Assembly: GCA_029959325.1 (NCBI GenBank)
Contig: JASCPF010000001.1
Span: 62,001 to 126,000 of the forward strand
Reading direction: 5' to 3'
Origin: Microbacteriaceae bacterium PS02068
Lineage (GTDB): Bacteria; Actinomycetota; Actinomycetes; Actinomycetales; Microbacteriaceae
DNA length: 64,000 nucleotides
This document shows, in pieces, positions 35,037 to 51,219 of this stretch. Every line of letters starts with the position of its first letter. Position 1 is the first letter of the stretch. The notes below the pieces were generated by a model, which was not told where the DNA came from, did not search any database, and saw only the letters and a program-made list of their open reading frames with translations. The position numbers and the translations under genes were made by a program.

Positions 35037-36269
35037 TCACCAGAGTGTCGCGGCGCCGCTTCGTGGAGCCTGAACCCATCCACTTCCTCGGCGCACGACC
35101 GCGCCCTCGAGTTCGAGGAGACCCAGCAGCGCCGCGGCCTCGTCGACGGCGAAGCCCGCTCGACGCGCCACGTCCTCGGTCGCACGTCCGGTGCGAGAGC
35201 CCACAGCATCGAGCAACCGGGTGCGATCGTCGGTGCGACCGTCAGCATCGGTGAGCTCCCCCACCGCGGTCGCCGTCACCGCTATCATTCCGCCGAGCAG
35301 TTCCTGCACATCCGAGAATCCCGTGATGCACACCGCTTCGGACGAGCGCAGCAGCCGGTGGCATCCCATCGACGACGCGCTCGTGATCGGTCCGGGGACG
35401 ACCCCGAGGGGCCGACCGATCTGCAGCGCGTGGTTCGCGGTGTTGAGCGCGCCGCTGCGCCAGCCGGCTTCGACGACCACGGTCGCGTCGCTGAAGGCGG
35501 CGATCAGGCGATTACGCATCAGGAATCGATGCTTCGTGGGCACGGTGCCGCACGGCATCTCCGCGATCACGAGGCCCGCCCGGGCCATGCGCTCGACGAG
35601 GTCGATATGGCCGACAGGGTACGTGCGCTCGAGTCCGCCCGCCATCACGGCGACGGTGCTCCCGCCCGCGGTGAGCGCGGCGCTGTGCGCCGCCCCGTCG
35701 ATGCCGTAGGCCGCGCCGGAGAACACCGTGACTCCGGCGATCGCGCTCTCGGCGGCGAGATCGCTCGCCACCTGTTCTCCGTACGACGATGCCGCCCGCG
35801 CCCCCACGAGGGCCACCGCGGGTGCGGTGGCTCCGAGAAGCGAAACGTCCCCCCTCGCCCACAGGCACAGAGGTGCATGCGGCCCGAGGACGCCCGCACG
35901 CGCGGGCCACCGGCCGTCTTCGGGTGTCAGCAGATGCAGGCCGGTGCGCCGAGACAGCGCGAGAGCGGCCGGGGCTGCGCCGATCCGCGGCATCCAGCGG
36001 GCACGACCTGCGCGCAGCGCGTCGAGCGACAGATCAGCGGCGCGCGCGGCGTCGGCGATCGCTCGGTCTCCGGCCGACAGCGCGACCTCGAGCGCGAGCG
36101 GCGCGCCGAGAGCCGCCACCAGCGCACCCGCCACGCCGTCGCCCGGCTCGACCAATGTCGACCAGACGGCACGCGCGTATGAGATGACCATGTCGTCGTC
36201 GCTGGCCTCGCCGACCATCTGACCCAGTTCACGTCGCGCGCGGTGCGCGGTCAGCTCGATCTCCGTCAT
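35037..36269 (-). CDS. dprA: DNA processing protein DprA
   Basis: DprA loads RecA on incoming single-stranded DNA in natural transformation. The 410-residue protein has the Rossmann-fold core: VALVGARAASSYGEQ, FSGAAYGIDGAAH, GGSTVAVMAGGLERTYP and EMPCGTVPTKHRFLMRNR, then a C-terminal winged-helix DML1-like region. ATG 36269 overlaps the end of the comM remnant (ATGA), so in the ancestral state it was translated right after ComM. The island inside comM now separates dprA from the upstream genes. Confidence 0.95.
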   Translation of the reverse strand: MTEIELTAHRARRELGQMVGEASDDDMVISYARAVWSTLVEPGDGVAGALVAALGAPLALEVALSAGDRAIADAARAADLSLDALRAGRARWMPRIGAAPAALALSRRTGLHLLTPEDGRWPARAGVLGPHAPLCLWARGDVSLLGATAPAVALVGARAASSYGEQVASDLAAESAIAGVTVFSGAAYGIDGAAHSAALTAGGSTVAVMAGGLERTYPVGHIDLVERMARAGLVIAEMPCGTVPTKHRFLMRNRLIAAFSDATVVVEAGWRSGALNTANHALQIGRPLGVVPGPITSASSMGCHRLLRSSEAVCITGFSDVQELLGGMIAVTATAVGELTDADGRTDDRTRLLDAVGSRTGRATEDVARRAGFAVDEAAALLGLLELEGAVVRRGSGWVQAPRSGAATLW

Positions 36270-36757
36270 CGGTGCACCCCGCGCTTCAGGTACAGCGCCC
36301 GCCCGATGTCCTCGATGGCGAGACGGTCGCGGCCAGCCAGATCCGCATGCGACCACGCGACACGCAGCACGCGGTCATATCCGCGCAGGGTCAGACCGCC
36401 GCGCTGCAGCGCCGCGTCGAGCGGTCGCCGGATCACCGGCTCGGGCGCGAGAGGCCCATCGCGCAGCCAGGCTCCCGCGACCTCGGCGTTGGTACGCCAC
36501 GGCGTCGCGGCGAGCCGTTCCGCAGCACGTGCGCGTGCCGAGACGACCTGCGCCCTGGCATCCGCCGTGGTGACGCGGCTCGCGTCGCCGACGCGCAGCC
36601 GCGCGACGGCCACCCGCTGGAGCGACAGCTCGATGTCGACCCGGTCGAGCAACGGACCCGAGAGCTTGCCCAGGTAACGGCGGATCGCGAGCGACGGGCA
36701 CCGGCACTCGGCGTGGGGCACCCCGTAGTTGCCGCACGGGCACGGGTTGGTCGCCAG
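36266..36757 (-). pseudogene. comM: 3' part of comM (yifB), cut off by the island
   Basis: The C-terminal 163 codons of the Mg-chelatase-type AAA+ helicase, starting LATNPCPCGNYGVPHAECRCP and ending KRGVHR, with the C-terminal domain (LSGPLLDRVDIELSLQRV). It lacks Walker A and B. Together with 53342-54382 it makes a 510-residue ComM. In-frame GTG codons exist (for example VPHAECR), so a truncated peptide is possible but is unlikely to work alone. The stop overlaps the dprA start. Confidence 0.95.
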
Positions 36758-36822
36758 CTTGTGTCGGGGGTTTCTTGCTGTTTAGTGTTCACTTCCCGCT
36801 TGAGTGAGCGTAGGGTCCAGGC
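36758..36822. other. Left end of the island (recombinase side)
   Basis: 65 bases between the comM junction and the first recombinase gene. It contains the terminal CTTGTGTCG, an inverted repeat AGTG-TT-CACT (about 36784-36793) and CGCT-TGAGTG-AGCG just after it. The promoter of the recombinase operon must overlap this segment. The right end carries a related AGTGATCAGTCACCCC, suggesting shared recombinase or regulator sites. Confidence 0.6.
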
Positions 36823-38283
36823 ATGAGCGCGGGGCCGGGTGACAAGTCGCCGCTCGACAGTGGGCGTTGGCGTCTCTTCCGATTGGCTGACGAGCCGGTC
36901 GAGGCGGAGACTACTAGGCGCTCCAGGTGGTGGGAGCAGTTGGGCATTCCGTCGGGCACGCCGTTTCTGCTGTCGCCTTCGTTCGCGTACGACCGTGAGC
37001 TGAACGACTTCTTCTACTCGGCGGACATGTTGACGACGCGGATGTCAACGCGCGTGGGGTATGCGGGCGACCTCGTGATGTTCTTCAACTTCCTGTACCG
37101 CGGCCGCGGAGTCGTCGATTGGCGGGACGCGACCGAGACGGATCATCGCGCGTATCTCCTGTGGCGCCGACAGGATCCTCAGGGTCCGTTGATCAGTGGG
37201 CGGACGTGGGACCGGGAAGTCAGCGCCCAGAACCGGTTTTTTCGCTGGCAGACTTCGCGTGGCCGCGTAGCTGAGAACCCGATTCCGCAACGCAACTCGC
37301 GCCCTGGACCGCGGTCCAAGACACGCTCTGCGGACCAGACGGCGGCGACCTACTCGCACGACGCACGTCGTGAGCACGTGCAGTGGTTGCCCGCAGCGTC
37401 CTATCGGACCTGGCGTGATGTGGGCGTGCGCGGGTACACGACCGATGCCCTTCCGGACCCGTCGTTCCGTGGAAGGTGGGCTGCGCGCAACGCGGCATTC
37501 ACGGACCTGATGGTGCGAACAGGCCTGCGACTGACGGAACAGGCCTCCTTGCTGGCGGCGGAGATCCCGTCGGCACCCGAAGGTGGGTACAGCAGGTTCT
37601 GGTTGGGCGGTGCGGTAGCCAAATGGGGATCCGAGCGCTGGATCTACGCGCCCGCGAGTGTCCTACACGACCTTGCCGAGTATGCGCGGGTCGATCGACG
37701 AGACGTAATCGAGGCGGCGCGAGATCGCGGACTGTACGAGCTTGCCACCGGCCCAACACTGGATCCGGACTCGGGGGTGGTCGTCACCCGGTCCCGCGGT
37801 GGGCTGCAGTCGCGCACGAAGGTCGCCAACCTGCCGCCCGCGGAACGGGCGCGCCTCATGATCGAGACAGAGGACGGGCTTGAGCCTGCGGCGCTGTGGT
37901 TGACCGAGAACGGTGCTGCGGTGTCGGTGTCGACATGGAAGGACCTGTTCCGCCAGGCGAATGAGAGGTGCGCGGCACGCGGGCTCGCGCTACGGGCGCA
38001 CGCTCATCTGCTTCGCCACACATTCGCCGTGCTAACGCTGGAGCAGCTGCAACGCGGGCACATCGCCGCGTTGGCCGGGCTGAAGCCTGAGCAGCGAACG
38101 CACTATGTGCGTGTGTTCGGAGATCCTCTGGATTGGGTGCGCAGGGCTCTGGGCCATCGGAGTGTCACCACGACCCAGATCTACCTGCATGCGCTGGAGG
38201 AGCTCGAGCTTGAGACCCGGCTGGCCCTGATCCCCGATCAATGGAACGATCCGCGCGCCCCTCGATCCGACGGTGCAGCGTGA
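36823..38283 (+). CDS. Tyrosine recombinase 1 (TnpA-like)
   Basis: A 486-residue integrase-family protein with a complete active site: Arg236 in RTGLRLTEQ, His395 and Arg398 in HAHLLRHTFA, His445 in LGHRSVTTTQ and nucleophile Tyr454. An N-terminal core-binding region precedes residue 200. First of four genes joined by overlapping stop/start signals (its TGA and the next ATG share a base), so the products are probably made together. This is the best candidate for the active strand-exchange enzyme, similar in role to TnpA of Tn554. The plus orientation reads into the island. Confidence 0.93.
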   Translation: MSAGPGDKSPLDSGRWRLFRLADEPVEAETTRRSRWWEQLGIPSGTPFLLSPSFAYDRELNDFFYSADMLTTRMSTRVGYAGDLVMFFNFLYRGRGVVDWRDATETDHRAYLLWRRQDPQGPLISGRTWDREVSAQNRFFRWQTSRGRVAENPIPQRNSRPGPRSKTRSADQTAATYSHDARREHVQWLPAASYRTWRDVGVRGYTTDALPDPSFRGRWAARNAAFTDLMVRTGLRLTEQASLLAAEIPSAPEGGYSRFWLGGAVAKWGSERWIYAPASVLHDLAEYARVDRRDVIEAARDRGLYELATGPTLDPDSGVVVTRSRGGLQSRTKVANLPPAERARLMIETEDGLEPAALWLTENGAAVSVSTWKDLFRQANERCAARGLALRAHAHLLRHTFAVLTLEQLQRGHIAALAGLKPEQRTHYVRVFGDPLDWVRRALGHRSVTTTQIYLHALEELELETRLALIPDQWNDPRAPRSDGAA

Positions 38284-40091
38284 TGGCGGGACGAGGCAGC
38301 ACCGGCGTCGGCCGGCCGTCACGGTCTCCGGCCGAAGGTTACGTCCCGGTCGCAGCCGAGACGTCAGGCATCGAGGGAACGACCGTGCATTTCCGAGGTG
38401 AGGATCGGCGGCAGCATCGCTTTGAGGTCGGTTCGCTGCCGTTGCCGGGGTGGCATGAACCCCTCGCCAGCGCGTGGGCGGCCCGCACCGGCCCGACCGG
38501 CGGGCTTCGTACCCTGGCGTCCAGCCAAGGTGCGTGGGGTGCGCTGAAGCGATTCATGCGGTTCCTCGACGGGACGCGCTGGCCTCCGACAGTGCCGGAT
38601 GAGCTCACCACGATGCACGTGGACGACTTCCGGCGGGTTCGCGCTGAGGCCATTGGCCGAATTCAGGCCGGCATCGAGCTGCGCATGGTCGGCCTTCTCT
38701 TCGAATACCAGCCGCTGAGTCAGCTCGTGTCCTCGGAGGTGAGAGACCGTCTCCACCCTCGCGTATTCGCCGGTTCGGGTAGGACGGCGATTTCCGGGTA
38801 TTCGGATGCTGAGCTGGCGAGAATCGTCGCCGCGGCACGCGCAGACGTCAATGCTCTTCGGCGGCGACTTCGCGGAGCCGACGCCGACCCCGATCCGGTC
38901 GCATCCGAGGTACGCCGCACTGGTCGCGTCAGGTTGGGAGGGGTGTCCGCTCCGGCACGAGCCGAGGCGCTGAGGTCGGTGGCCGACAAGGTCTTCGCGA
39001 CCCGCCGGGACCTCTATCCGATGCTGGTGCTGCTGATGGCGGTGACGGGATGGAATCTCGAGGTCATCAAGGAGCTTCCTGTGGAGCATCGAGTGATCGA
39101 GGGGCGCGCGGTCGAGGTCGATCTCGTCAAACGGCGCCGAGGCCCGGGCCACTGGCACCGGACCGTCACCTGGGAGATCGGCGCGGAAGGGCGCGAGCTT
39201 TATACGCCTGGTGGGCTCTACTTGCTGTTGCATCGGCTTATGGCACCAGCTCGCGCGTTCCTGCCGACGCCCGCCTTCTGGGCCATCTGGCACCAGCCCA
39301 GCGGACGATCTCACCCGTCGGAGTGCCGCAATCCGTTCGAGGCGACGTTGGATGCGAGCTTGCGGTGGGCCTCGTGGGTGGCATCGCATGACCTGCGAGC
39401 CGACCCGCCGTCGAGGGCGGACTCCGCCCCTGGCGCGACTGGAGACCCGCTGCGGCTGACCGCGAACCGACTGAAGACGAGCATTGACGTCCGCCGTACG
39501 CGTGAGCTCGGCGGACATCTGCCTTCCGCAGCCCGCAGCAACACCACCGCCGTACTGTTTCGAAATTACCTCTCGGGTGATCAGACCACGATCGAGTGGG
39601 CGCGCGAAGTGGTCTCCGAGGCGTTCACGGACGTAGAGCGCGCTGCCTACGACACGCATCTGCGCGCGCTACGCGACAACGGCGGACGCCGCCAGTTGAA
39701 AATCCTCACCACCTCACGCCCAGCCGGGCCGCCGTCCCCGGCGGCCGAAGCCGGTGGATCGGAGACGGCGTGGACGTCGTGTAGCGACCACTCCCACCAT
39801 CCGCTCACAGGGCGTCGTTGTGGGGCGTCCTTCCTCGACTGCTTCCACTGCGGCAATTGCGTCATCACCGGAGATCACCTGCCACGGCTGTTAGGCCTGC
39901 TGGACGCGCTCGAAGCGCGTCGGTCTGTGCTCTCGGATCAGGAATGGTGGGCCCGCTACGGGCCAGTCTGGGCAGCGATCCGTCATGATGTGTTCCCGAA
40001 GTTCACCGAGGCGGAGATCGGTCGCGCCCACGCGGACCGCCCGAACGACAGCCTGCTGGATATCGTTGAACCTCCCTGGGAACGGACATGA
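38283..40091 (+). CDS. Tyrosine recombinase-like protein 2, catalytic Arg missing
   Basis: A 602-residue protein of the same superfamily, but the expected catalytic TGxR motif reads TGWNLEV with Asn258 in place of Arg, and the HxxR box appears as TANR (about 393-396). A GHLPSAARSNTTAVLFRNYL region still matches the His...Tyr segment (His412, Tyr429). The C-terminal part has a Cys cluster (C500, C513, C520, C523, C526) with CFHCGNC spacing suited to zinc. Likely a non-catalytic or partner subunit that binds DNA or aids target choice. Coupled to both neighbours. Confidence 0.82.
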   Translation: MAGRGSTGVGRPSRSPAEGYVPVAAETSGIEGTTVHFRGEDRRQHRFEVGSLPLPGWHEPLASAWAARTGPTGGLRTLASSQGAWGALKRFMRFLDGTRWPPTVPDELTTMHVDDFRRVRAEAIGRIQAGIELRMVGLLFEYQPLSQLVSSEVRDRLHPRVFAGSGRTAISGYSDAELARIVAAARADVNALRRRLRGADADPDPVASEVRRTGRVRLGGVSAPARAEALRSVADKVFATRRDLYPMLVLLMAVTGWNLEVIKELPVEHRVIEGRAVEVDLVKRRRGPGHWHRTVTWEIGAEGRELYTPGGLYLLLHRLMAPARAFLPTPAFWAIWHQPSGRSHPSECRNPFEATLDASLRWASWVASHDLRADPPSRADSAPGATGDPLRLTANRLKTSIDVRRTRELGGHLPSAARSNTTAVLFRNYLSGDQTTIEWAREVVSEAFTDVERAAYDTHLRALRDNGGRRQLKILTTSRPAGPPSPAAEAGGSETAWTSCSDHSHHPLTGRRCGASFLDCFHCGNCVITGDHLPRLLGLLDALEARRSVLSDQEWWARYGPVWAAIRHDVFPKFTEAEIGRAHADRPNDSLLDIVEPPWERT

Positions 40092-42172
40092 CCTCGCGCA
40101 CCGCCTCCGACGCGGAGATGGCGGACCTCCGATTTGTCCTCCATCGACGCGCGCTACGGCCTGGATACCGTCTCGAGGACACGGCGCGATTCGATGACGA
40201 CGAGTGGGCGCTCGCGCCCGCCTCTGTGCAGCAGCAGGAACGCGGCCTCACTCTCCGATTCGACACGGTCCCGGACCGGCACCGGATCGCGCTGAAACGG
40301 CTCTGCTTCGCAATGCTGTCCGGACCGTCGCCGGACGATGCGCCCCGACCACGGATCTCGAGCGTCGCGACCGCGTTCTACAGCTTGCGGACGTTCCTCC
40401 GCTGGCTGGACACGACGCACCCCGACATGCCCCTGCCCGACGTAACGACGACGGTGTATGAGCAGTATCAGCGCCATCTGCTCACCACCTTCCCATCCGC
40501 GTCGAGGCGGTTCGCTCTGCGCTCGGCCGTGAACATCCTGTGGCGCTATCGCGCTGGCGTCGCCGAAGCGGGCCTGCAGACCGATCCGCGACGCGCGGCC
40601 TCCTGGAGCGAACCCGACCCGGGGCGCAGCCGTGAGAACACGACCGAACGCATCCCCGAAGCCGTGCACAGCCGAGTGCTGGTGTGGGCAGTGCGATTCG
40701 TGGATGACTTCAGCGGCGACATCGTCGCGGCGATCAGATCCTGGAGCATCCGACGCCGCCCGGTGCGCAACGGGCACATCACTGGCAGGCCCTACGGATT
40801 CCAGCAAGACCGGATCCGCACATACCTCGCCGAGACCCGTCAGACAGGCTCGCCCTTGCCAGGGCTGCGCGGCATCCCGCACTTCAACGCGATCGCCTAC
40901 CAAATCGGGTGCGACCGCACTGCTCTCGAGCGCCAGCGCGAAGAGATCCTCGCCACCGCCTCGATCGTCGGCGTGTCGGAGTACGCCGAGCTTGGGCTCG
41001 ATGTGCAGGGACGTCTCGACGGGGCGCCGTGGATCGAGGGCATTAGCCTGGCTCCTGGGACGGACCAGTCCCTCACCGTACTCACGCAGGTGCTTCACAT
41101 CGCGTGCTACATCGTGATCGCCTTCCTGTCGGGAATGCGCGACAACGAAATCAAGCATCTCCGCCCCGGGTGCTGTACCTCTGCCCGGGACGGGACGGGA
41201 CGTCCTTACCGGTGGACCGTGACGAGCACGGCGTTCAAGGGCGAGCTCGACGACCGCGGCACCACTGCAACCTGGGTCATTGGCGAGGCAGCCGCGCGCG
41301 CCATCCGAGTACTCGAGGACGCGCACTCCGCGACGTCCGCTCCTGCTCAATGGCTGTTTGCGCCGCTGAAAGTGGGCCCCGGCGCCGGATCGGCCGGCCG
41401 CGGCGGCAATCACGCCCTCACCCTCGCGGCCACCAACAGGCAGCTGGCACGCTTCACGACCTGGGTGAACGACTACTGCGCCGCACACGGCCGGGACGAC
41501 GGGATCCCTGACGTCAACGGGCGCACCTGGCGACTTTCCAGCAGACAGTTCCGCCGCACCCTCGCCTGGTACATCGCGCGCCGCCCCGGCGGATCGATCG
41601 CGGGAGCGATCGCGTACCGACACCACAGCATCCATATGTTCGAGGGCTACGCCGGCACATCCGAATCCGGATTCCGCGCCGAGGTAGAAGCCGAACAGGC
41701 GCTGGCACGCGGTGAGCACCTGCTGGCCATGGTCGACCAGCACGACCATTCAGAGCTCTTCGGACCAGCAGCAGACGCCGCCCGCCAGCGCTTGGACGAG
41801 TTCGGGGAGAAGGCTCGCTTCCAAGGCATCGTCGCCACTGACCGTCGCCGACTGCTGCGGCTCATTACCCGCAACGATCCCGCCGTGTACCCCGATCGCT
41901 ACGTTACCTGCGTCTACGACCACCGCAAAGCGCTCTGCCGCGACCGCACCGGCGCACCGGACGAGGGACCGGACCTGCGCGCATGCAAACCCCTCACGTG
42001 CGCGAACGTCGCACTGGACGCCGACAACCGACGCGCCTGGCAAGAAGAGCTCGAGACCATCGACGCCGACACCGCGATCCGCCCCGCGCTGCCACCGCTC
42101 CTTGCCGAGCGCCTGCGCAAGCGCCGAGCGCAGATCATGCATCTGCTGGAGAGGAACGGAGCCGAACCATGA
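40088..42172 (+). CDS. Tyrosine recombinase 3 (TnpB-like)
   Basis: A 694-residue protein with a tyrosine-recombinase catalytic domain: Arg351 in SGMRDNEIKHL, Arg489 in SSRQFRRTLAWYI (the His of HxxR is Arg486), His513 and Tyr521 in YRHHSIHMFEGYAG. A long N-terminal part (about 330 residues) and a Cys pattern near 608-638 (C608, C617, C633, C638) complete it. Tn554 TnpB has a similar size (about 630 residues). ATG 40088 overlaps the previous stop. Second-most likely catalytic subunit. Confidence 0.85.
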   Translation: MTSRTASDAEMADLRFVLHRRALRPGYRLEDTARFDDDEWALAPASVQQQERGLTLRFDTVPDRHRIALKRLCFAMLSGPSPDDAPRPRISSVATAFYSLRTFLRWLDTTHPDMPLPDVTTTVYEQYQRHLLTTFPSASRRFALRSAVNILWRYRAGVAEAGLQTDPRRAASWSEPDPGRSRENTTERIPEAVHSRVLVWAVRFVDDFSGDIVAAIRSWSIRRRPVRNGHITGRPYGFQQDRIRTYLAETRQTGSPLPGLRGIPHFNAIAYQIGCDRTALERQREEILATASIVGVSEYAELGLDVQGRLDGAPWIEGISLAPGTDQSLTVLTQVLHIACYIVIAFLSGMRDNEIKHLRPGCCTSARDGTGRPYRWTVTSTAFKGELDDRGTTATWVIGEAAARAIRVLEDAHSATSAPAQWLFAPLKVGPGAGSAGRGGNHALTLAATNRQLARFTTWVNDYCAAHGRDDGIPDVNGRTWRLSSRQFRRTLAWYIARRPGGSIAGAIAYRHHSIHMFEGYAGTSESGFRAEVEAEQALARGEHLLAMVDQHDHSELFGPAADAARQRLDEFGEKARFQGIVATDRRRLLRLITRNDPAVYPDRYVTCVYDHRKALCRDRTGAPDEGPDLRACKPLTCANVALDADNRRAWQEELETIDADTAIRPALPPLLAERLRKRRAQIMHLLERNGAEP

Positions 42173-42570
42173 CCCGCGCCGTACCGCTGCCGACCGAGAC
42201 AGAGATCACCGCCGTCGTCGAGGCACTCACGAGGGAAGATCCATCGCACCCTCCCGCAGTCCTTGCCGTCGCCGCGCGCCTCGGACTCAGCAACGCCACC
42301 TTCTGGCGCCGCTTCCCTCAACTCGCACAGACGCTCGCCGACACCCGAAAGGACGCGCTGCGCGACCGCACCCGCGCTCCGGAACGCCCCTCACCTGCAC
42401 TGCCCGCCGCTGAGCTTGCTCGGCTCCGCAACGACAACGCACGCCTGGATAGCGAGGTGCGCGCGGCGGCTGCGGAAGTGCAGCGACTGACGCTCGAGAA
42501 CCATGCCCTTCGCACGCAGCTCGAGCAAGCATCCGGCGTCATTCCGATCCACGCGCGCGGCGACGAGTAG
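42169..42570 (+). CDS. Small coiled-coil accessory protein (TnpC-like)
   Basis: A 133-residue protein with an N-terminal helix-turn-helix-like segment (VAARLGLSNATFWRRFPQLAQ) and a heptad-rich coil (LRNDNARLDSEVRAAAAEVQRLTLENHALRTQL spans residues 85-118). Size and place after the recombinases match TnpC of Tn554 (125 residues), which aids orientation of insertion there. ATG 42169 overlaps the stop of gene three (ATGA). Function by analogy only. Confidence 0.72.
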   Translation: MTRAVPLPTETEITAVVEALTREDPSHPPAVLAVAARLGLSNATFWRRFPQLAQTLADTRKDALRDRTRAPERPSPALPAAELARLRNDNARLDSEVRAAAAEVQRLTLENHALRTQLEQASGVIPIHARGDE

Positions 42571-42585
42571 CCGACCCCGGGGCCT

Positions 42586-42894
42586 TCAACGGCTGCGCAG
42601 GTCCGGCATCTCTTCGGGAATCAGCTCAATAAGCGGTACGCCCAGCACTTGCGACAACGTGAGAACGGTCCGCAACGTCGGATTCGCCGCGGTCCCCGGG
42701 CGCGACTCGCCCTTCTCATACTTCTGATACGTGTAACGCGTCAGCCCCGCTCGGTAGGCGACGTCTTCCTGACTCAGCCCCGCCTGGTCGCGGGCGCGGC
42801 GGAGATTCGTCGCAAGAAGCTGCACGTAGTCGCTCCACTGCGCGTCGATACCGTCGTCACGCCGAGCCACCCATCCAGCCTCGCGATCGACCAC
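42586..42894 (-). CDS. XRE-family transcriptional regulator
   Basis: A 102-residue protein with an XRE helix-turn-helix: RRARDQAGLSQEDVAYRAGLTRYTYQKYEKG, residues about 33-63, then a short dimerisation tail. Start GTG 42894. It converges on the recombinase operon (15 bases apart) and diverges from the gene at 43063. Beside it lie GTATGGCC repeats that look like its operator. Probably controls its own gene and the divergent gene. Confidence 0.86.
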   Translation of the reverse strand: MVDREAGWVARRDDGIDAQWSDYVQLLATNLRRARDQAGLSQEDVAYRAGLTRYTYQKYEKGESRPGTAANPTLRTVLTLSQVLGVPLIELIPEEMPDLRSR

Positions 42895-42899
42895 CTCGG

Positions 42900-42939
42900 G
42901 TATGGCCTACTCCGTATGGCATAATTTCGAAGGCCATAC
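42900..42939. promoter_or_regulatory. Repeat-rich operator of the XRE regulator
   Basis: Just upstream of the regulator start lie three copies of an 8-base site: GTATGGCC (42900-42907), GTATGGCA (42914-42921) and the inverse GGCCATAC (42932-42939). Between them is CATAAT at 42920-42925, a possible -10 for the plus-strand gene. Spacings of 14 and 18 bases place half-sites on about the same face of DNA. Confidence 0.6.
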
Positions 42940-43062
42940 GAAACAATCTCGGTACCTGTCGGACTCCGTCCGCCTCCTTCTGCACGTGTGCTGCTGGCCC
43001 CGTCGGCCACTGGTCGCGTCGCGGGGTCGGCCCTCGCATGCGACCAGGATTGTGATGGTGCA

Positions 43063-43551
43063 GTGACACCCGACCCGTACCCGATCTGGTGGCGGGAGAT
43101 TCCCAGCCCGCCGCCGGCACAGTGGGGATACGTCTTCGAAGAGCTCACAGGCGAAGACCGTGCCGAGGAGTGGGCGCTGGCCGCCGGCATCTTCGTCGCC
43201 CAGGTGCGGCGACGCACAGGCCGCGGCCCGACCTATGCGGAGCTGTTCGCGCATCTTCTTCCCGACATGGACGGGCTGCCTGCACCCTTCCCGCCGGGCC
43301 TGACGTACTTCGAACGACGCCGCGCGCTAGCCGGGTTTCGCGGACACGTCACGATCGAATGGCGCCGGCGCGGCATGATCAGCTGGGAGACAGGCGTGAC
43401 CCGCAGCCTGCGGGTCGGGCGCGCTTTCCGGGCGCGATCCCGAGACCGACAGCATGCCCAGACGGACCCTCGCAGCCGACTAATCGCACACGTCACCGAT
43501 GAGCAGACGCGGCCCCCACACTCGAGCGAACGGAGCCGGGATGATCGATGA
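43063..43551 (+). CDS. Hypothetical island protein
   Basis: No family recognised. From GTG 43063 the 162-residue protein begins VTPDPYPIWWREIPSPPPAQWGY; residues 15-100 are a compact, well-composed domain (EELTGEDRAEEWALAAGIFVAQVRRR, YAELFAHLLPDM, FRGHVTIEWRRRG), while the last 45 residues are Arg/Ser/Asp-rich and disordered-looking. No signal peptide or membrane helix. It overlaps the next gene's start by 11 bases, so the two are an operon behind the XRE operator. Confidence 0.6.
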   Translation: MTPDPYPIWWREIPSPPPAQWGYVFEELTGEDRAEEWALAAGIFVAQVRRRTGRGPTYAELFAHLLPDMDGLPAPFPPGLTYFERRRALAGFRGHVTIEWRRRGMISWETGVTRSLRVGRAFRARSRDRQHAQTDPRSRLIAHVTDEQTRPPHSSERSRDDR

Positions 43552-43918
43552 GAACCTACCCGAGGCGCAGCGGATCCTCGCTCGAATCGCCGTCGGATGG
43601 CCAGAGCTTCTCGAGGTGAACCCAGGCTGGCTCCCACTACTGGGGCGCCTTGACGAACAGCTCTCCATAATCGCTCCGGACTACGTCGTCCTGCAGTGCA
43701 AGTCCAAGTTCGGCGCCCTCAGCTTCTATGCGCAGCCGTCACCGGATCCGGGGACGCACGACGACGAGTTCGCGGGGATCATTCACGCGGCCGAGTGGGA
43801 AAGCACGCGACTGTGCGAACTGTGTGGCGGCCCCGCACAGCAGTACACGATCCGGCTGTGGTCCTGGACGCTCTGTACTGATCATGCAAGACAGATGGCC
43901 GAGGAGGCCCACGGATAA
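43541..43918 (+). CDS. Hypothetical protein with Cys-x2-Cys motif
   Basis: A 125-residue protein of a family common in plasmids and mobile islands but without known function. Recognisable are LLGRLDEQLS, VVLQCKSKFGALSFY and AEWESTRLCELCGGPAQ with a late LCTDHA; the two CxxC-like Cys plus Cys/His near the end could hold a zinc. ATG 43541 has GGAG about 9 bases upstream and overlaps the gene before it. Confidence 0.65.
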   Translation: MIDENLPEAQRILARIAVGWPELLEVNPGWLPLLGRLDEQLSIIAPDYVVLQCKSKFGALSFYAQPSPDPGTHDDEFAGIIHAAEWESTRLCELCGGPAQQYTIRLWSWTLCTDHARQMAEEAHG

Positions 43919-44292
43919 AGCCCACGGGTGAGTCGGCGGATCGAGCCTGAGATCGCGGCGGCTGGAGACACTGAACCGGACGCGTCGAAGTGCCGTCGAC
44001 TCGTCAAGACCGCTGAGTCATTGATCTCCTGGCCGCGGTCGCGAACGTTGCCGTCCGAGGATCGAAGCGCCTCGATGTGCAGGGATCGCGCGAATCCCGT
44101 CCCGACCGCTGGATCCCATATGTCGACGGACTTCAAACTCAGGTCCAAGCGAGCGGGCAGGCCCAACCGATAAAGCTTGTGCAAGCGAGAGACTGGTCGT
44201 GTGTTCGAGCCTGAGCTTCCGCGCTCGTCGTCCGAGTACGCAGGTGTCCTTCGGCGCCTCCAGAACGAGGCGAAGGGCGTGGTGCGAACTCT
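43919..44292. other. Intergenic stretch, no gene seen
   Basis: 374 bases between the plus-strand unknown gene and the convergent hsdR. Short open frames here lack coding character. A hairpin CCTTC-G-GCGCCTC / GAGGCGAAGG (about 44249-44276) lies 17 bases past the hsdR stop; without a T run it is only a weak terminator candidate for the hsdMSR operon. Confidence 0.5.
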
Positions 44293-47200
44293 TCACTCGA
44301 CGGTTCCGTCTGATTCGGGATCGTCAGTCATGCGCAGCCGTCGCGACTCATAGAGGTACTCGCCGATGAGGCGGATGAACTCATCCGCACGGGCGCTCTC
44401 CCCCGTGAGGGCTTCGGTGAGCTTACCGAATGCACCCTCATTGAGCACGGCGGCATCGGTGAGGGTCTCGCGCAGGTCGGGTGAGGAGAGGAATTGGTCG
44501 ACTGCGTTGTGGTCGATCTGCTCGACGATCCGCGGATCCTCGCTGGCCAGTCCGGCCGCCGCGATCACGAAGCCCTCGATCTGCGGATCGGCGAACTCGG
44601 ACCCAAACAGAGCATTGATCCGTGCCACGACCTGGGACAGTAGTTCCTGCTGCGGGTCCTGCCGCGAGATGCTCGACCCCATGCCAGTGATGCCCCGCAG
44701 CCCAGGGGTGTCCTGATCCCCCGTGAGGCCAATGTCTGCCTGGCCTCGATCGATCTGACGGACGTGGCGAAGCTCGAGCCCGGACACGTCTGCATCTGCG
44801 TCGTCGTCAGCACCAGGCAGTAGCAGGACCAGCTGCCGCAGGAACTCGGCGAGCTTCTCCAGATCCGACGTGCCGTAGTCGACCACCTGAGACATGAAGT
44901 CGTATAGGCGGACGTATGACCCGCAGTCTTTCCTGAAGGTGCTCAGTTCGTCGAGCGCCTGCGCATCGTGCTGCTCCTTGGCGATGTTCCGCTGTGCGAT
45001 GAACTCGTCGCGGGGCGGCTTCACGGCCGCCGACAACTCGGACCGCGGCTGGGGATCGCTCCACCACGCTGCCGCGTAGCGCTCTACGTCCGCCGGCGTG
45101 TAGATCCGGGCTTGCGCGAGCTTCGTCGCGAGGCGGTGCACCAGGTTCGGATCCGTGGCCGTCTCGACGTGCGCTTCGAGGTAATAGGTCAGGAATGCCT
45201 CGCGAATCTCAGTCGGATCGTTCACGAAGTCGAGCACGAACGTGCGGTCCTTCTTCTCCCCGGACGGTGCGCGGTAAGTGCGATTCAGCCGCGAGAGCGT
45301 CTGGACTGCGTGGACATCCGGCAGCCGTTTGTCCACGTACATCGCGCACAGCAGCGGCTGATCGAAGCCGGTCTGGAACTTGTCGGCCACCAGCATCAAC
45401 CGATACTCGGGCCGGCGGAACTCCTTCGCAAGGTCGGAACCGAGACCGGGGTTAAGGGACGCCTCCGTGACGTCCTGCAGCCCGTACTCGTCATCGCTGA
45501 TCGTCCCGGAGAACGCGACGATCGTCCGGTAGCCGTAGCCGTTCGCAGCCAGGTACTTGTCGGTCTCGACCTTGTAGCGCACCGCAGCCTGGCGGGAGTC
45601 GGTCACGACCATCGCCTTGGCGTGCCCGTCGAGCAGATGCGCAACGTTGGCGCGGAAGTGCTCGACGATGATCTCGACTTTCTGCCCGACGTTGCTTGGG
45701 TGCAGTTTCGCGAATCGCATGATCTTCCGGCTCGCGACCTTCGGATCGACCAGATGATCATCGGCCTCGTCGACGGAGATTCCAGTGACAAGGCCGTTCT
45801 CGCCCCGCTGTTCGATCTCAAACGCAGTCCGGTACGTCTGGTAGCCGCGCAGCACGTCGAGGATGAAGCCTTCTTCGATGGCCTGCCGCATTGGGTAGAC
45901 ATCGAACGAGACCGGCTTGCCGTCGCGGTTGACCCGGCCGAAGAGCTCTTTGGTCTTGGCCTTGGGGGTCGCCGTGAAGGCCAGCAGCGACACGTTCCGG
46001 GCTCCAGCGCGCGCGGCGGTCTCAGCAGCGATCTTCTTCTCGCGGGCGACGTCGGTTTCGACGATCTCGTTGATGAGGTCCTGGCTGTCCAGATCGTCGT
46101 CGTCTGCGAGCTCGCCGCCGTCGGTCAGGACCTTCTTCAGCTCCGATGCGGTCGTGCCGGACTGCGACGTGTGAGCCTCGTCGACAATCACCGCGAAGTT
46201 GCGGTCACCGAGCTTCTCCTCCAAGAGGTTCTTCACGTATGGGAACGTCTGGATAGTGACGACGATGACGAGCGCCGAGCCCGTCAACGCATCAAGCAGA
46301 GCGCGCGACTTCGATCCGCCGCTGCGGCGGATCGCGGCCGAATCGATTACGGCGACGGTGCCGGACGTGTCATCGACCTGGTTGATCGCCTGCTGCAGCT
46401 GGGCATCGAGCACCCGTCGGTCAGAGACGATGATGACCTTGTCGAAGACCTTCTCGTTCGAGAGGTCGTGCAGCCGAGCGAGACGGTGTGCCGTCCACGC
46501 GATCGTGTTGGTCTTCCCAGAGCCGGCCGAGTGCTCGATCAGGTAGCGCTGGCCCGGGCCCTCATCGGTGACCGCGTCGACGAGCTTCGTCACCGCGCGC
46601 CACTGGTGGTAGCGCGGGAACATGAGCGTCGTCGACCGCTTGATCTTGCCCGTCGCGGGATCCTCGTCGTTCTCCGTCTTCAGGAACATCTGCGAATCGA
46701 GAATCGACAGCCAGTTGTCGCGCTGCAGTACCTGCTCCCACAGATACGAGGTCGCGGTGCCGTCCGGGTTCGGCGGGTTCCCGGCTGCGCCGGTGTCCGC
46801 ATGCCCCTGGTTGAACGGCAGGAAGTAGGTCTTCTCGCCAGCGAGCCGCGTGGTCATGTGGACCTGGTCATCGTCCACGGCGAAGTGCACCAGCGCGCGC
46901 GAGCCGAAACCGAGCAGCGGCTGACCCGCCGGGTTACGGTCCTCCCGGTACTGGCGCATCGCCGAACGCCATTCCTGCTTGAAGAACGACTTCAGCTCGG
47001 ACGTCGCGACCGGGATGCCGTTGACGAAGAGCACCAGGTCGATCGAGCGCGAGTCGCCGCGCTTCGGCGAGAAGAAGACCTGCCGGGCGACCCGAAGCCG
47101 CACCTTCCGATAGTTGGCAGTGACTTCCGAGTTGAGGCTGGTCGCCGGTCGGAACTGGCACATCTTCAGATGCGCGGTCGCGCCGCGGGTGTGCGAGAAC

Positions 47201-47499
47201 TTCCGGCGCAACACGTTCAGAGTGCCACCACCCGAGCTCATCGGCGTGTCCAGGCGCGACACCAGCGACGAGATCAGAGCCTCCTTGTCGGCGCTCTCTG
47301 CGCCGGTGCCGACGCGCACGACCTTCGCGTATTCGGCGGGTTGAGTCTCCCGCAGCCACCAGTGCACGTCCTCGGGCCAGAGCGCACGTGCGGCATCGTA
47401 GCCTTCGTTCGCCTTCTCGTGCACCCATCCATGGGTGGCGAGGTGCTCAACGATCTCGGATTCGAATGCTTCCTCGTGGGTGCCGTCTGCTGCCGCCAT
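44293..47499 (-). CDS. hsdR: Type I restriction endonuclease subunit R
   Basis: The ATP-driven translocase/nuclease of the R-M complex. The 1068-residue protein has an N-terminal nuclease domain with Asp154 and Glu168-x-Lys170 (TSELKSF), the Walker A HSAGSGKTN (323-331), VDEAHTSQSG (DEAH box), LAFTATPKAK and a second RecA-like domain ending with QTLSRLNRTYR, then a helical region. All motifs are intact, so it should be active. It follows hsdS by two bases and is last in the operon. Confidence 0.96.
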   Translation of the reverse strand: MAAADGTHEEAFESEIVEHLATHGWVHEKANEGYDAARALWPEDVHWWLRETQPAEYAKVVRVGTGAESADKEALISSLVSRLDTPMSSGGGTLNVLRRKFSHTRGATAHLKMCQFRPATSLNSEVTANYRKVRLRVARQVFFSPKRGDSRSIDLVLFVNGIPVATSELKSFFKQEWRSAMRQYREDRNPAGQPLLGFGSRALVHFAVDDDQVHMTTRLAGEKTYFLPFNQGHADTGAAGNPPNPDGTATSYLWEQVLQRDNWLSILDSQMFLKTENDEDPATGKIKRSTTLMFPRYHQWRAVTKLVDAVTDEGPGQRYLIEHSAGSGKTNTIAWTAHRLARLHDLSNEKVFDKVIIVSDRRVLDAQLQQAINQVDDTSGTVAVIDSAAIRRSGGSKSRALLDALTGSALVIVVTIQTFPYVKNLLEEKLGDRNFAVIVDEAHTSQSGTTASELKKVLTDGGELADDDDLDSQDLINEIVETDVAREKKIAAETAARAGARNVSLLAFTATPKAKTKELFGRVNRDGKPVSFDVYPMRQAIEEGFILDVLRGYQTYRTAFEIEQRGENGLVTGISVDEADDHLVDPKVASRKIMRFAKLHPSNVGQKVEIIVEHFRANVAHLLDGHAKAMVVTDSRQAAVRYKVETDKYLAANGYGYRTIVAFSGTISDDEYGLQDVTEASLNPGLGSDLAKEFRRPEYRLMLVADKFQTGFDQPLLCAMYVDKRLPDVHAVQTLSRLNRTYRAPSGEKKDRTFVLDFVNDPTEIREAFLTYYLEAHVETATDPNLVHRLATKLAQARIYTPADVERYAAAWWSDPQPRSELSAAVKPPRDEFIAQRNIAKEQHDAQALDELSTFRKDCGSYVRLYDFMSQVVDYGTSDLEKLAEFLRQLVLLLPGADDDADADVSGLELRHVRQIDRGQADIGLTGDQDTPGLRGITGMGSSISRQDPQQELLSQVVARINALFGSEFADPQIEGFVIAAAGLASEDPRIVEQIDHNAVDQFLSSPDLRETLTDAAVLNEGAFGKLTEALTGESARADEFIRLIGEYLYESRRLRMTDDPESDGTVE

Positions 47500-47501
47500 C
47501 G

Positions 47502-48800
47502 CTAACTCGCTCTCCGTGCCGTGCGAACGTTGATCTGTCCCGTCACCGCTGCTGTGATCAGCGCCGAGCGGCGTTCCTTGGCAAGAGCGATGTGCTCCTC
47601 AGCCTTTGCGATCAGAGCATCGATCTGGGCGGTCTGCTGCTGGATGTGCTCGACAATGGCGCGCTGCTCGTCGACCGGCGGAATCGGGAGCGGGAGATTG
47701 TCGAGGTCGTTTTGCTTAATCCGGCGGTCGAACGTCGTGTTCGACCGTGTATAGAGCTTGTACTGCTCGAAGTACGGCGCAGATCGAAGGATGGCATGAA
47801 GGTACCAGGGATCGAGACGGTCAGAGATCTCAAAGACCCGGTAGTCGGGGCTCACCGCACCGCGCTTATCGGACACGCCGATCGCACCGCCGATCAGCCA
47901 CATGGGGTTCACAACGAGATCTCCCGGCCTCGCCACGAGGTACCGCGGGATCGAAGTCTCCGCGGCGTTCTGCTGGGCACTCATGGTCGATCGATCAGTC
48001 AGGTAACCCTTGACAGTCAGCGACAGCATCAATTCTGAACTGGCGCGGTTGCGCTCTTCTCGCGGGAAGCAGACGGTCTTGAACCGCTCCGTACCCCATG
48101 ACACCGGAGCTGCAGCGAGCCAGGGTTCGACAGCCAGAGAGCTTCCCCAGCGAGTCACTGCATGATCGCCCCGCGCTTCGCCTTGGAGGCCACCAAGAGC
48201 TGTCGTCGTAGCGACGGCGAGCCGCCTCTCTTCGAGACGAGCGATCAGCTCCTCCTGCTTGGCCACGAGCGCGTCGATCTGGGCCGTCTCACGGGCCAGG
48301 TAGTCGGCGATCGCGTGCTGATCGTCCAGGGACGGGAATGGAACATGAACTCCAGCGAGGTTCTTCCGAGACACACGCTGCCGTGTTGCCCCGGCTTGGA
48401 GGAGTTCGATTTGGTCACGCACGAAACGTGAATTGATCGCATACATAAGGTATGCGCTAAAGGTCGTTTTAGGATTTGGCCGGAGAATTGCGACATCGAC
48501 GACGGTCGCAGCCCGCCCGATCGCCTCAGGGACTAGACATGCGCGACCGAGTGGGTCAGGCATTCGGGCAACCAAAACGTCACCCGGCTGAAGGTACGTG
48601 ACCTGCAGACGACGTGCCTGCTCATCGTTCATCCAACGATCACTACGATCGCGCCAATGGGTCTCGCCGATATCGGCGAGCTGTGTGAGGCGCACAGCTC
48701 CATTTGGGTCCTGGTCCTTCGACTCGACCCAGTCGCCATCGACAATAGACCCGCCTTGAAGGATCTGCCGAAGGGGCAAGACACGAGACCCAGTCGTCAC
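47502..48800 (-). CDS. hsdS: Type I restriction-modification specificity subunit S
   Basis: Chooses the bipartite target sequence for the M and R subunits. The 432-residue protein has two target-recognition domains (about 1-150 and 215-370), each followed by a helical spacer with the near-identical TAQIDALVAK (172-181) and TAQIDALIAK (390-399). ATG 48800 overlaps the hsdM stop (ATGA). The DNA of the two spacers is also similar, so recombination between them could change specificity. The target sequence cannot be predicted. Confidence 0.95.
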   Translation of the reverse strand: MTTGSRVLPLRQILQGGSIVDGDWVESKDQDPNGAVRLTQLADIGETHWRDRSDRWMNDEQARRLQVTYLQPGDVLVARMPDPLGRACLVPEAIGRAATVVDVAILRPNPKTTFSAYLMYAINSRFVRDQIELLQAGATRQRVSRKNLAGVHVPFPSLDDQHAIADYLARETAQIDALVAKQEELIARLEERRLAVATTTALGGLQGEARGDHAVTRWGSSLAVEPWLAAAPVSWGTERFKTVCFPREERNRASSELMLSLTVKGYLTDRSTMSAQQNAAETSIPRYLVARPGDLVVNPMWLIGGAIGVSDKRGAVSPDYRVFEISDRLDPWYLHAILRSAPYFEQYKLYTRSNTTFDRRIKQNDLDNLPLPIPPVDEQRAIVEHIQQQTAQIDALIAKAEEHIALAKERRSALITAAVTGQINVRTARRAS

Positions 48801-50803
48801 GCTTCCACCTCACGGAGCATGATCATGATCTCGCCGACCACTCTCTCGAGGTCGGCGTCGATCTCGCTGAGCGCCCGGGGCGGCTCGTACATGTAGAAGT
48901 GCCGGGTGAACGGGATCTCGTAGCCGGTCTTGGTCTTGGCCCAGTCGATCCATGCATCGTCGACGTGCGGCTTCACTTCGGCGTCGAAGTACGCCTGGAC
49001 GGTCTCTTCGAGCGCTTCATGGGTCTTCGGGTGCCCGCCCCAGCCGAACGGGACGTTCTCGGTGTCGCGCAGGGCAGGGTCAGGCTCGATTTCGCCCTTC
49101 TGGGGACCGGTCGTGTACCGGCAGAAATCAGCCGAATCATCGTGGACGCCGATGACCTGCCAGAGCGTTTTGCGCTGCGCCATGGTCAGCGTGACTCCGC
49201 TGTTGCCGAGGTGCTTCCCGAGCGCCTGCAGGAACGTCTCACGGTTCAGGTACGGCTCCGTGCCGAACGATGTGAGCGCATCTGCAAGTCCCGCGATCTT
49301 GCCGAGTGTCTTGTGCTCAGTGACTACACTGATGGTCTCTGGGGTGCACTCGAACCGGAGCTGCAGGGGCCGCTCGACGGTCGCGGTCCAGTAGGCGAAG
49401 TCGCGGTTCGCGAACTCTTTCATCGGCACGGTGATCTCGTCAGTATCGCTCGCAGTGCCATCGAATGTGCGAACGATGGCGTCCCGATGCTTCTCGACGA
49501 TCTCGACTCGCTTGGATCCGATCGCCTTGCGGAGCTTCGAGCCCAGTCCGGTCGCATCGATGAGCTGGACCTTGCCCCTACGTGCAGCCGGCTTCGCGTT
49601 CGACAGGATCCACAGGTACGTGGCGATGCCGGTGTTGTAGAACATATCGTTCGGCAGCGCGACGATGGCCTCCACGAGATCCCGCTCGAGCATATGTCCG
49701 CGGATGTCGGACGGTCCCGATCCTGCGCCTCCGTTGAACAACGGGGAGCCGTTCAGCACGATGCCGGCCTTGCCGCCGCGGCCGGTCTCGTCGACGTCGC
49801 GCATCTTCGAGGCGACGTGGAGCAGGAAAAGCATTGCAGCATCGCCCACGGCCGGAAGCCCCGGCGCGAACCGGCCCTGGCCGCCGAGGGCGTGCTCGGC
49901 CTTGACGTCGGACTCGACCGCCTTCCAGTCTGTGCCGAACGGCGGGTTCGAGAGCACGTAGTCGAACCGGCGGTTCTCGAACAGGTCGGTGACCAGTGTG
50001 TCGCCCCGGCGTACGTTCGACGGATCCTGCCCCTTGATCAACAAGTCCGCTTTGCAGATCGCGTAGGTGCGCGGGTTGATCTCCTGCCCGAACAGCGCAG
50101 TCGAAGCACCCGGGTTGACCTCGCGGAGGTGCTCGTCGGCGACGGTGAGCATGCCGCCGGTACCAACGGTGGGGTCGTAGATCGAGCGCACGGTGCCACG
50201 ATCACGCAGCGCCTCTGTGTCTTCGGCGTACAGAAGATCGACCAGCAGGCGAACCACGTCACGCGGCGTGTAGAACTGGCCGGCACCGTCATTGGCCGAC
50301 TCGGCGAAGCGGTAGATGAGGTTCTCGAAGAGGTCACCCATGTCGGCATTGGACACTGCATCCGGGGACAGGTCGATGCCCGCGAAGTGCCGGACAACCT
50401 GTGCCAGACGATCGCGCGCGTCGAGCGTCCGGATAACGTTCTCAAAGTCGAAGGACTTGAACACGTCCAGATTCGCCGAGAAGCCGCCGATGTAGTCGAG
50501 GAGGTTCGCCGCGAGGTTGTTCGGATCCTGCAGCGCCTTCTTCAGCGTGTACGCGCTGGTCGTCCAGAATGACAGGCCCGCGCTGTCCACGGTGCGTGTC
50601 TTGATCTTCAGATGGGTACGGCGCTGCTGCTCGCCGTTGTGCTTCTTGACGATCTCAGCCATCACCTCACGGTGCGGGTCCATCACACACTCCAGACGGC
50701 GCAGGACGGTGAACGGCAAGATCACTGAGCCATATTCGGCTTCGGCGTATGGACCCCGCAGAGTGTCGGCGACGCTCCACACAAAGTTCGAAAGAACTGA
50801 CAC
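48797..50803 (-). CDS. hsdM: Type I restriction-modification methyltransferase subunit M
   Basis: N6-adenine methylase. With GTG 50803 as start (GGAG lies 11 bases upstream) the protein has 668 residues: an N-terminal helical HsdM_N domain, FYTPRDVVRLLV, AdoMet motif I DPTVGTGGML (210-219) and catalytic motif IV NPPFG (286-290). A TTG at 50845 would add 14 residues but has no ribosome-binding site. It heads hsdM-hsdS-hsdR, transcribed away from the right end of the island. Confidence 0.95.
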   Translation of the reverse strand: MSVLSNFVWSVADTLRGPYAEAEYGSVILPFTVLRRLECVMDPHREVMAEIVKKHNGEQQRRTHLKIKTRTVDSAGLSFWTTSAYTLKKALQDPNNLAANLLDYIGGFSANLDVFKSFDFENVIRTLDARDRLAQVVRHFAGIDLSPDAVSNADMGDLFENLIYRFAESANDGAGQFYTPRDVVRLLVDLLYAEDTEALRDRGTVRSIYDPTVGTGGMLTVADEHLREVNPGASTALFGQEINPRTYAICKADLLIKGQDPSNVRRGDTLVTDLFENRRFDYVLSNPPFGTDWKAVESDVKAEHALGGQGRFAPGLPAVGDAAMLFLLHVASKMRDVDETGRGGKAGIVLNGSPLFNGGAGSGPSDIRGHMLERDLVEAIVALPNDMFYNTGIATYLWILSNAKPAARRGKVQLIDATGLGSKLRKAIGSKRVEIVEKHRDAIVRTFDGTASDTDEITVPMKEFANRDFAYWTATVERPLQLRFECTPETISVVTEHKTLGKIAGLADALTSFGTEPYLNRETFLQALGKHLGNSGVTLTMAQRKTLWQVIGVHDDSADFCRYTTGPQKGEIEPDPALRDTENVPFGWGGHPKTHEALEETVQAYFDAEVKPHVDDAWIDWAKTKTGYEIPFTRHFYMYEPPRALSEIDADLERVVGEIMIMLREVEA

Positions 50804-50973
50804 GACTTGAACTACTCCGGTTCTGCTGCACTCAATATGGGCCAAGAAGGAACATCCGCTGATCCTTGGGCGGACTCTCGAAGCACACTATCGCGGAGGC
50901 AGGACATGGCTGATGCGATGCCACCGCAGTGACTGCAGCGCCTAAGACGCGTCCGAGTCCCTACCCTTATCTC

Positions 50974-51174
50974 ATGACGTTCGACAACCTGGCCGCTGCG
51001 GCGCAGCCGATCTGCCCGTCGTGCGGTGTGACGATGCATCCAGTCATCGAGGAAGGCATCGGAGCCGATGAGTGCCGTGAGTGCGCGCATCGAATCGAGT
51101 GGCCGATAACGGACGTCCAGTACCCGGGCGAGGGCGAGGGGGTCATCGACTTCTGGCTGGACCGGCCGAACTGA
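50974..51174 (+). CDS. Small zinc-ribbon protein
   Basis: A 66-residue protein with CPSCG (residue 14 onward) and CRECAHR (34 onward), a classic two-knuckle zinc ribbon, and an acidic-Gly tail (YPGEGEGVIDFWLDRPN). A start at GTG 50929 is possible but has no better support. Transcribed opposite to hsdM, from a 128-base gap. Function unknown; its size fits regulatory or small nucleic-acid-binding proteins. Confidence 0.6.
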   Translation: MTFDNLAAAAQPICPSCGVTMHPVIEEGIGADECRECAHRIEWPITDVQYPGEGEGVIDFWLDRPN

Positions 51175-51219
51175 CCAGCGATGTCCTCTGCGCTGAGGAG
51201 CACATCTCGTTCGCCGGTG

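Follow-up and report, generated by a model that had tools for sequence, protein, structure and literature searches.

A four-gene tyrosine-recombinase operon at the left end of an integrative island in comM of a Microbacteriaceae genome

We analysed a stretch of 64,000 nucleotides from Microbacteriaceae bacterium PS02068 (the window), which contains an operon of four overlapping genes, here called A to D. The operon forms the left end of an island that, as read from its junctions, is inserted precisely in comM. It very probably serves the recombination of a site-specific integrative island that is related in kind to the strand-biased circularizing elements (SEs) and the GInts, in a branch with members in Actinomycetota and Alphaproteobacteria. 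Elements of this kind are known, but the branch, its site and the behaviour of its spacers did not appear in our literature searches; among the papers listed by these searches, which are not proof of absence, none describes elements of this kind in comM of Actinobacteria.

The insertion is defined by the two halves of comM, which lie 16.6 kb apart, both on the minus strand (Table 1). Read against uninterrupted comM genes of the genus, the left junction (attL) is GGGTTGGTC-GCCAGC-TTGTGTCGGGGG and the right junction (attR) is CCAGTCGCACACAA-AGCACC-ACGAGCTGG. Removal of the island together with the 6 bp at attR leaves FRAVFPARFQLVLATNPCPCGNYG in frame, which is the intact ComM reading, and the joined flanks read in frame as FPARFQLVLATNPCPCGNYG, as they do in uninterrupted comM of the genus. 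The insertion point falls between the FQLV and LATNPCPCG codons. A single occurrence of the Mg_chelatase_C domain (PF13335) was found in the genome, and the split comM is therefore the only one. The two ends of the element have TTGTGT in common, beyond which the likeness of the repeats is weak, and the likeness between attL and attR is weak as well.

All four genes of the operon are on the plus strand, at the positions and with the overlaps first assigned to them; the junctions are TGATG between A and B and ATGA both between B and C and between C and D. The original prediction took these shared stops and starts to mean that the proteins are made in fixed proportions, which goes too far, as overlap suggests translational coupling only. 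B has an additional upstream in-frame ATG at 38241. In a Pfam scan A matched Phage_integrase and a SAM-like core-binding domain, C and D gave matches only below the cut-offs, and B gave none. The order A-B-C-D is present in 7/7 close relatives of the same genus, and loci from Actinobacteria and Alphaproteobacteria share the order A-B-C; this gene order recurs across relatives and is therefore not due to chance. In three alphaproteobacterial loci (L088, L089 and L102) A, B and C are present and D is not annotated.

We assessed the conservation of the active-site residues in homologues taken from actinobacterial genomes and plasmids. A first alignment was made without L067 and L069, whose scores equal that of L068 and which were taken as identical to it. 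A wider alignment, like the profile comparisons with HHalign described below, was made without L062, L063, L074 and B frames shorter than 500 amino acids, as far as each script applied this; the C gene of genome G612 is frameshifted and was excluded from the wider alignment, from HHalign and from the tree. R236, H395, R398, H445 and Y454 of A are each present in 24/24 homologues in the first alignment and in 42/42 in the wider set, with the exception of H395 (41/42). In C, R351, K384 and Y521 are found in 24/24 homologues and R489 and H512 in 24/25 in the first alignment; in the wider set R351, K384, R489 and H512 are present in 42/42 and Y521 in 41/42, the remaining row having a gap. On these residues A and C are recombinases with complete or near-complete tyrosine-recombinase sites, and what had been proposed for A and for R351 and Y521 of C is borne out; K384, R489 and H512 of C come in addition to the residues named in the original prediction. 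The cysteine cluster of C is also conserved: C608, C617 and C638 occur in 41/42 proteins and C633 in 35/42, C633 being missing from the six rows of the SE group and from the gap row.

The second protein, B, is a different case. Across 41 aligned B proteins from all groups, including the Tfp proteins of SEs, the position of the first catalytic arginine (Arg-I) is occupied by Asn in 34, Glu in 5, Thr in 1 and Arg in 1. This agrees with the earlier observation that the middle protein has lost its first arginine, which applies to 40/41 of the proteins; of the three recombinases then proposed, two stand with essentially full sites (A and C), and B is better described as a crippled partner. The B of L086 is a fused frame cut by script, such that this one row is possibly misaligned. 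The hairpin Lys is kept in 40/41 proteins and the Tyr in 41/41, the latter being alignment-dependent in L064 and L070, where it is shifted in one alignment and counted in the other. At the Arg-II position 28 of the 41 proteins have Arg and 13 have Lys, and the His/Trp position is divided between His (20) and Asn (21). Cys 500, 520 and 523 are present in 41/41, such that the predicted cysteine clusters are conserved in both large partners. In the SE report, Tfp and GinC are described as lacking the RHRY motif (PMC10214605). Our counts suggest that the loss in B and Tfp can be narrowed to Arg-I, which is nearly always gone, with Tyr retained. We assign B to the recombinase fold because of the order and spacing of its motifs and because the second protein of locus L101 matches both Phage_integrase (E 3.7e-7) and the B profile (E 4e-29).

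The closest likeness of the operon is to the SEs, whose genes encode IntA, Tfp, IntB and Srap. Both have overlapping genes in the order active, crippled, active and small auxiliary protein, both are site-specific, and both have a 6-bp spacer with host bases at attL. The proteins of the SE in pAQU1 have 545, 614, 671 and 161 amino acids, compared with 486, 602, 694 and 133 in the window. We took SE reference proteins from pAQU1, a published SE, and from plasmid loci assigned by a Tfp search. Hidden Markov models (HMMs) of the window family best match proteins at the same gene position in the SE group and in a Pseudomonas/Burkholderia/Mesorhizobium group, the matches being strong for A and C. 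HHalign gave 95% for A against IntA and 97% for C against IntB, both over most of the length, whereas none of four cross-position pairs compared with SE proteins exceeded 3.1%, and SE Tfp gave 0.3% against SE IntB. In a FastTree phylogeny of 43 C proteins, made without L062 and L063, the SE group forms one clade (support 0.99, or 0.94 with a Stutzerimonas protein), and the proteins from Actinobacteria and Alphaproteobacteria group in a second one (1.0). The differences from SEs are that these have been published from Gammaproteobacteria only, that the likeness is at profile level, that SEs have imperfect inverted repeats of 13-19 bp while the terminal repeats of the window branch appear to be shorter, and that attR is element-like in 6/8 elements of the window branch, while SE circles carry the left 6 bp.

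Several observations weigh against this placement. The gene order that defines SEs, with RHRY in IntA and IntB, is found here, but the His of the HxxR motif of C is replaced by Arg in the host genus. Likewise, Arg-I is missing from the second protein as in SEs, but the recombinase fold of B, which has no Pfam match of its own, is reached by a chain of homology through L101, and AlphaFold2 models of B and C had a mean pLDDT (predicted local distance difference test score) of 42 and were unusable. B matches the SE group weakly, both by HMM (six proteins, E 9e-7 to 0.19) and by HHalign (23% against Tfp, E 9e-4, over 439 colinear columns). The positions are not wholly distinct within the family, as HHalign gave 93% for an N-terminal stretch of B against C (81 columns) and 38% for C against A. 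D is poorly conserved, its matches to same-position proteins being weak HMM matches (best E 5e-6), and BLASTP with the Providencia D as query gave no match. A tblastn search with SE Tfp returned gammaproteobacterial names for all 40 matches listed of 52, which places the SE group and the window branch far apart. Six of the ten distant matches to C in the same genus were fetched and had no comM piece within the stretch covered, although in one of them (G433) the contig ends inside A. Finally, the mobility of the island is read here from sequence comparisons, and the comparison with GInts was made with the published description of these elements.

It is unlikely, but worth taking seriously, that the island is instead a true GInt (ginABCD) and no nearer to the SEs. 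GInts have four overlapping genes for three recombinase-like proteins and a small fourth one, varied cargo that includes restriction-modification genes, and a single target (PMC5385486), all of which resembles the island. However, the protein reported to lack the first Arg in GInts is GinC, the third by name (PMC5385486), whereas here the third protein has this Arg in 42/42 and it is the second that is without it. GInts also have a short AT-rich 3' end, whereas the last 400 bp of the island have a GC content of 66%. Imperfect direct repeats of 10-17 nucleotides flank GInts; in the window there is a weak likeness between attL and attR. Their targets are ssb, an ABC transporter gene and others, compared with comM here; a search of 32 loci, using a few start motifs only, found no ssb beside the Pseudomonas and Burkholderiales relatives. 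The matches of A and C to IntA and IntB as profiles also argue against a true GInt.

C matches were found in 18/366 genomes of the genus, the genome of the window included, and seven besides this one are close (52-94% identity). All seven have the order comM C-terminal part, A, B, C, D, with the same comM junction codons at both ends and the same orientation; in G586 the two junctions are on separate contigs, such that the link between the ends is inferred. The elements of the other six are 18.3, 21.2, 21.5, 31.6, 32.3 and 52.0 kb long. Pairwise identities of the recombinases follow one another closely (r 0.94 for A against C and 0.95 for B against C), whereas those of C do not follow host DprA (r -0.33) and follow the N-terminal part of ComM weakly (r 0.31). 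Thus, the window and G612 are 91% identical in C, 73% in the N-terminal part of ComM and 49% in DprA (the last value is possibly low, as dprA of G612 is in pieces), and G586 and G487 are 86% identical in C, 59% in host DprA and 76% in the N-terminal part of ComM. The recombinases vary with one another and not with the host genes, and the island therefore moves between species, with the operon travelling as a unit. An old insertion in an ancestor of the genus, inherited vertically and lost from most species, would explain why all eight copies have the same site and orientation, but is very improbable given that element identities do not track host identities, that only 8/366 genomes have a close match, and that 17/22 comM loci keep an intact target, with three of the other five broken or cut short beside serine-recombinase genes.

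Outside the genus, C matches were found in 23/394 genomes of the class and 5/396 of the order, the own genome included in each case, and in 256/72,556 plasmids (E up to 0.01). Among the plasmid matches listed, the best copy reaches 52% identity in C, and a further record lies at 60-80%. Viral contigs queried with C and B contained no relatives.

The junctions also allow the origin of the 6-bp spacers to be compared with that in SEs. Intact comM spacers could be read from 17/22 loci of the genus, and the spacer score was trained on the same 17 spacers that were used for comparison. The 6 bp at attL, beside the left terminal motif (C), are host-like in 8/8 elements (scores 5.3-7.9, with the 17 intact spacers going down to 4.9). 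By contrast, the 6 bp at attR, beside the right terminal motif (C'), are unlike the host in 7/8, scoring below 0; the eighth, in G612, scores 3.0 and is ambiguous, and attR in this genome has three extra bases. Six of the attR spacers have ARSACS in common. An SE leaves the 6 bp of attB next to C in attL and those of its circle next to C' in attR, a layout that the window branch shares as far as the junctions indicate. An SE circle is reported to pick up the 6 bp beside the left end of the element and to deposit them in the new attR (PMC10214605). Donors in comM should therefore give comM-like attR spacers, from which seven of the eight differ. By this proxy, and with all known close copies in comM, the junctions depart from the SE rule that the circle carries the 6 bp on the C side. 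There are two readings: in this branch the right-hand 6 bp are retained when the circle forms, or the donors were located outside comM, plasmids being one option. The presence of an element-type attR in both G586 and G487, whose hosts have diverged, favours the former, whereas the difference between the attR spacers of the window and G612 does not.

In GInts all four genes are reported to be needed (PMC5385486). In the account of SEs, circle formation was lost on knock-out of intA, of intB and of srap, but complementation restored srap only, tfp could not be knocked out, and circles arise by exchange of one strand (PMC10214605). A further trait of SEs is that no empty site is left after circle formation. 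In the window, A and C would recognize both the ends of the island and its site in comM, and exchange strands over the 6-bp spacer. B may join them in one complex, taking places of a recombinase but cleaving poorly for want of Arg-I, and may thereby block one of the two strand exchanges, giving rise to the strand bias reported for SEs. By analogy with what is thought of Srap, GinD and TnpC, D may assist assembly or orientation. Excision would yield a circle, and on entry of this circle into comM attL would take the host 6 bp and attR would keep those of the circle; the restriction genes are cargo. A more specific version of this mechanism, to which we give little credence at present, is that B, with its Tyr kept and its Arg-I lost, is a built-in brake. 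A mixed A/B/C complex would then complete only one of two exchanges, this change, kept from Gammaproteobacteria to Actinomycetota, would cause strand-biased copy-out, and the circle would here inherit the right-hand 6 bp, in a mirror image of SEs.

B could alternatively select the target by recognizing comM, like the inactive recombinase TnsF of Tn6022, and not act as a brake on strand exchange, a role that we regard as similarly doubtful. TnsF, with an inactivated recombinase domain, targets comM (PMC10293859), and a distant member of the family, in G300, uses a different gene, dprA. However, B keeps its Tyr in 41/41 and its Lys in 40/41 proteins, neither of which a pure DNA reader would need. 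Tn6022 and Tsy both insert in comM by recognizing a stretch in the Walker B codons (PMC10293859), whereas the island in the window lies approximately 38 codons further on. These elements share with the island the comM insertion and recombinase-derived proteins (an inactive one in Tn6022), but they carry a tyrosine recombinase, helix-turn-helix, TnsF and nuclease genes or Tn7 genes; the set that characterizes Tsy, namely a tyrosine recombinase, a helix-turn-helix protein and a zinc-finger TnsF at Walker B, differs from the island in both gene content and position.

The original prediction had likened the operon to Tn554 with a third large protein added. The likeness is close but the comparison is too narrow, as the published four-gene SEs and GInts are closer and the SEs nearer still in gene order. 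The prediction also did not connect the genes with the 16.6-kb island in comM and its restriction cargo. Tn554, which has a single target, and related two-recombinase elements of Actinobacteria have a short and a long tyrosine recombinase, many with a small TnpC-like protein (PMC3414803). Tn554 has TnpA, TnpB and TnpC only, with no described counterpart of B, whereas B is present in the window and in 7/7 close relatives and aligns in register, if weakly, with the second protein of the SEs, which makes a Tn554-like transposon with an extra protein improbable. RIT elements also have three adjacent, overlapping recombinase genes. They differ in having three genes, archetype proteins of 315-410 amino acids that all carry the catalytic Tyr, and 34-bp terminal repeats (PMC10214605); the three large proteins in the window have 486, 602 and 694 amino acids, and the outermost 40 bp at each end contain no repeat of the 34-bp type. 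A circular element of Rhodococcus jostii that we also considered is, as far as its description goes, not related.

Other members of the family use other targets. In G300 (L059, 4983-12273) a compact element of approximately 6.1 kb has A, B, C and a D-like frame, with a C that is 33% identical. It splits dprA between SGAAF and GIDGAA, the PF02481 pieces covering 6-82 and 83-206, and the adjoining comM is intact. We looked for comM and dprA pieces in 36 more distant loci, some without both flanks, and only G300 was positive. The same gene order is seen in L103 (Providencia) and L104 (Pseudomonas aeruginosa plasmid pNY5532-OXA), where the neighbour of the element reads as what we take to be the start of umuC; in L104 the cargo is a mercury operon and the B gene is broken by an IS30-like element. 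In L102 annotated pieces of a zincin-like metallopeptidase gene lie on both sides.

Three further genomes of the genus have a broken or truncated comM, namely G017 (L076), G020 (L077) and G001 (L078). We rejected the possibility that these breaks are due to the same element, as no A-D match was found there. Large serine recombinases with Resolvase and Recombinase domains are encoded in L076 and L077, and L078 has a weak match to a recombinase zinc ribbon; the breaks beside serine recombinases indicate that comM is a target for unrelated integrases. An apparent insertion in comEC of G600 (L188, 4103-5143) was likewise rejected, as the two PF03772 pieces are contiguous; this gene adjoins a remote version of the operon and has the look of a frameshifted gene, but the element does not split it.

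The cargo of the island in the window includes a type I restriction system (Table 1), and a PADLOC search of four cargo proteins outside this system found nothing. In G612 (L164, 9729-13538) and G754 (L171, 15948-19748) a large YobI-like ATPase (PF20693) lies beside type I restriction genes and is possibly a defence module moved by these islands. The host dprA of G612 (L165) is in two PF02481 pieces, one with a TAG; this is possibly a decayed competence gene beside an occupied comM.

Table 1. Positions in the window of the island, its junctions, the recombination operon and the cargo.
Feature	Position or residues	Strand	Basis
comM C-terminal half (Mg-chelatase-like AAA+ ATPase, YifB/ComM), left flank	36266..36752	-	Pfam Mg_chelatase_C, Mg_chelatase; empty-site alignment
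attL 6-bp spacer GCCAGC, host-type	36753..36758	.	agrees with the spacers in 17 intact comM genes of the genus
Integrated island, 16,578 bp	36759..53336	.	GC 65.0% vs 69.1% in the remaining window
Left terminal motif (C) TTGTGTCGGGGG	36759..36770	+	TTGT start in 6/8 elements
Protein A, tyrosine recombinase, 486 aa, IntA/GinA position	36823..38283	+	Pfam Phage_integrase and SAM-like domain; HHalign to SE IntA 95%
Protein A, site residues	R236 K267 H395 R398 H445 Y454	+	alignment
Protein B, crippled recombinase-like partner, 602 aa	38283..40091	+	HMM to same-position proteins; no Pfam match
Protein B, residues	Asn258 at Arg-I position; K283, Y429 kept; C500, C513, C520, C523	+	alignment
Protein C, long tyrosine recombinase, 694 aa, IntB position	40088..42172	+	HHalign to SE IntB 97%
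Protein C, residues	R351 K384 R489 H512 Y521; C608 C617 C633 C638	+	alignment
Protein D, small, 133 aa, C-terminal coiled-coil-like heptads (as predicted), Srap/GinD/TnpC position	42169..42570	+	sequence
Xre-type helix-turn-helix protein, cargo	42586..42894	-	Pfam HTH_3
HsdR, type I restriction subunit, cargo	44293..47499	-	
HsdS, specificity subunit, cargo	47502..48800	-	
HsdM, methyltransferase, cargo	48797..50845	-	
Cargo protein without family, membrane-like by eye	51220..51768	-	no Pfam or PADLOC match; one NCBIfam match far under cut-off
Cargo protein without family	51779..52948	-	no Pfam, NCBIfam or PADLOC match
Right terminal motif (C') ACTGTCCAGTCGCACACAA on + strand	53318..53336	.	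SAGWCGYACACAA in 8/8 elements, CAGTCGYACACAA in 7/8
attR 6-bp spacer AGCACC, element-type	53337..53342	.	no fit to host comM spacers; ARSACS in 6/8 elements
comM N-terminal half, right flank	53343..54382	-	Pfam Mg_chelatase, ChlI

As far as our searches showed, these results add Actinomycetota and Alphaproteobacteria to the known range of tyrosine-recombinase islands with the gene order of SEs, and they provide eight genomes with junctions at one target. They also offer a simple residue test of the role of a non-catalytic partner, at Asn258 and Tyr429 of B. The idea that mobile DNA limits transformation has been raised for comM (PMC10293859). comM and dprA serve DNA uptake and recombination, a process able to replace an island by an empty site, and insertions in these two genes would thus fit the idea that mobile elements limit transformation of their hosts.

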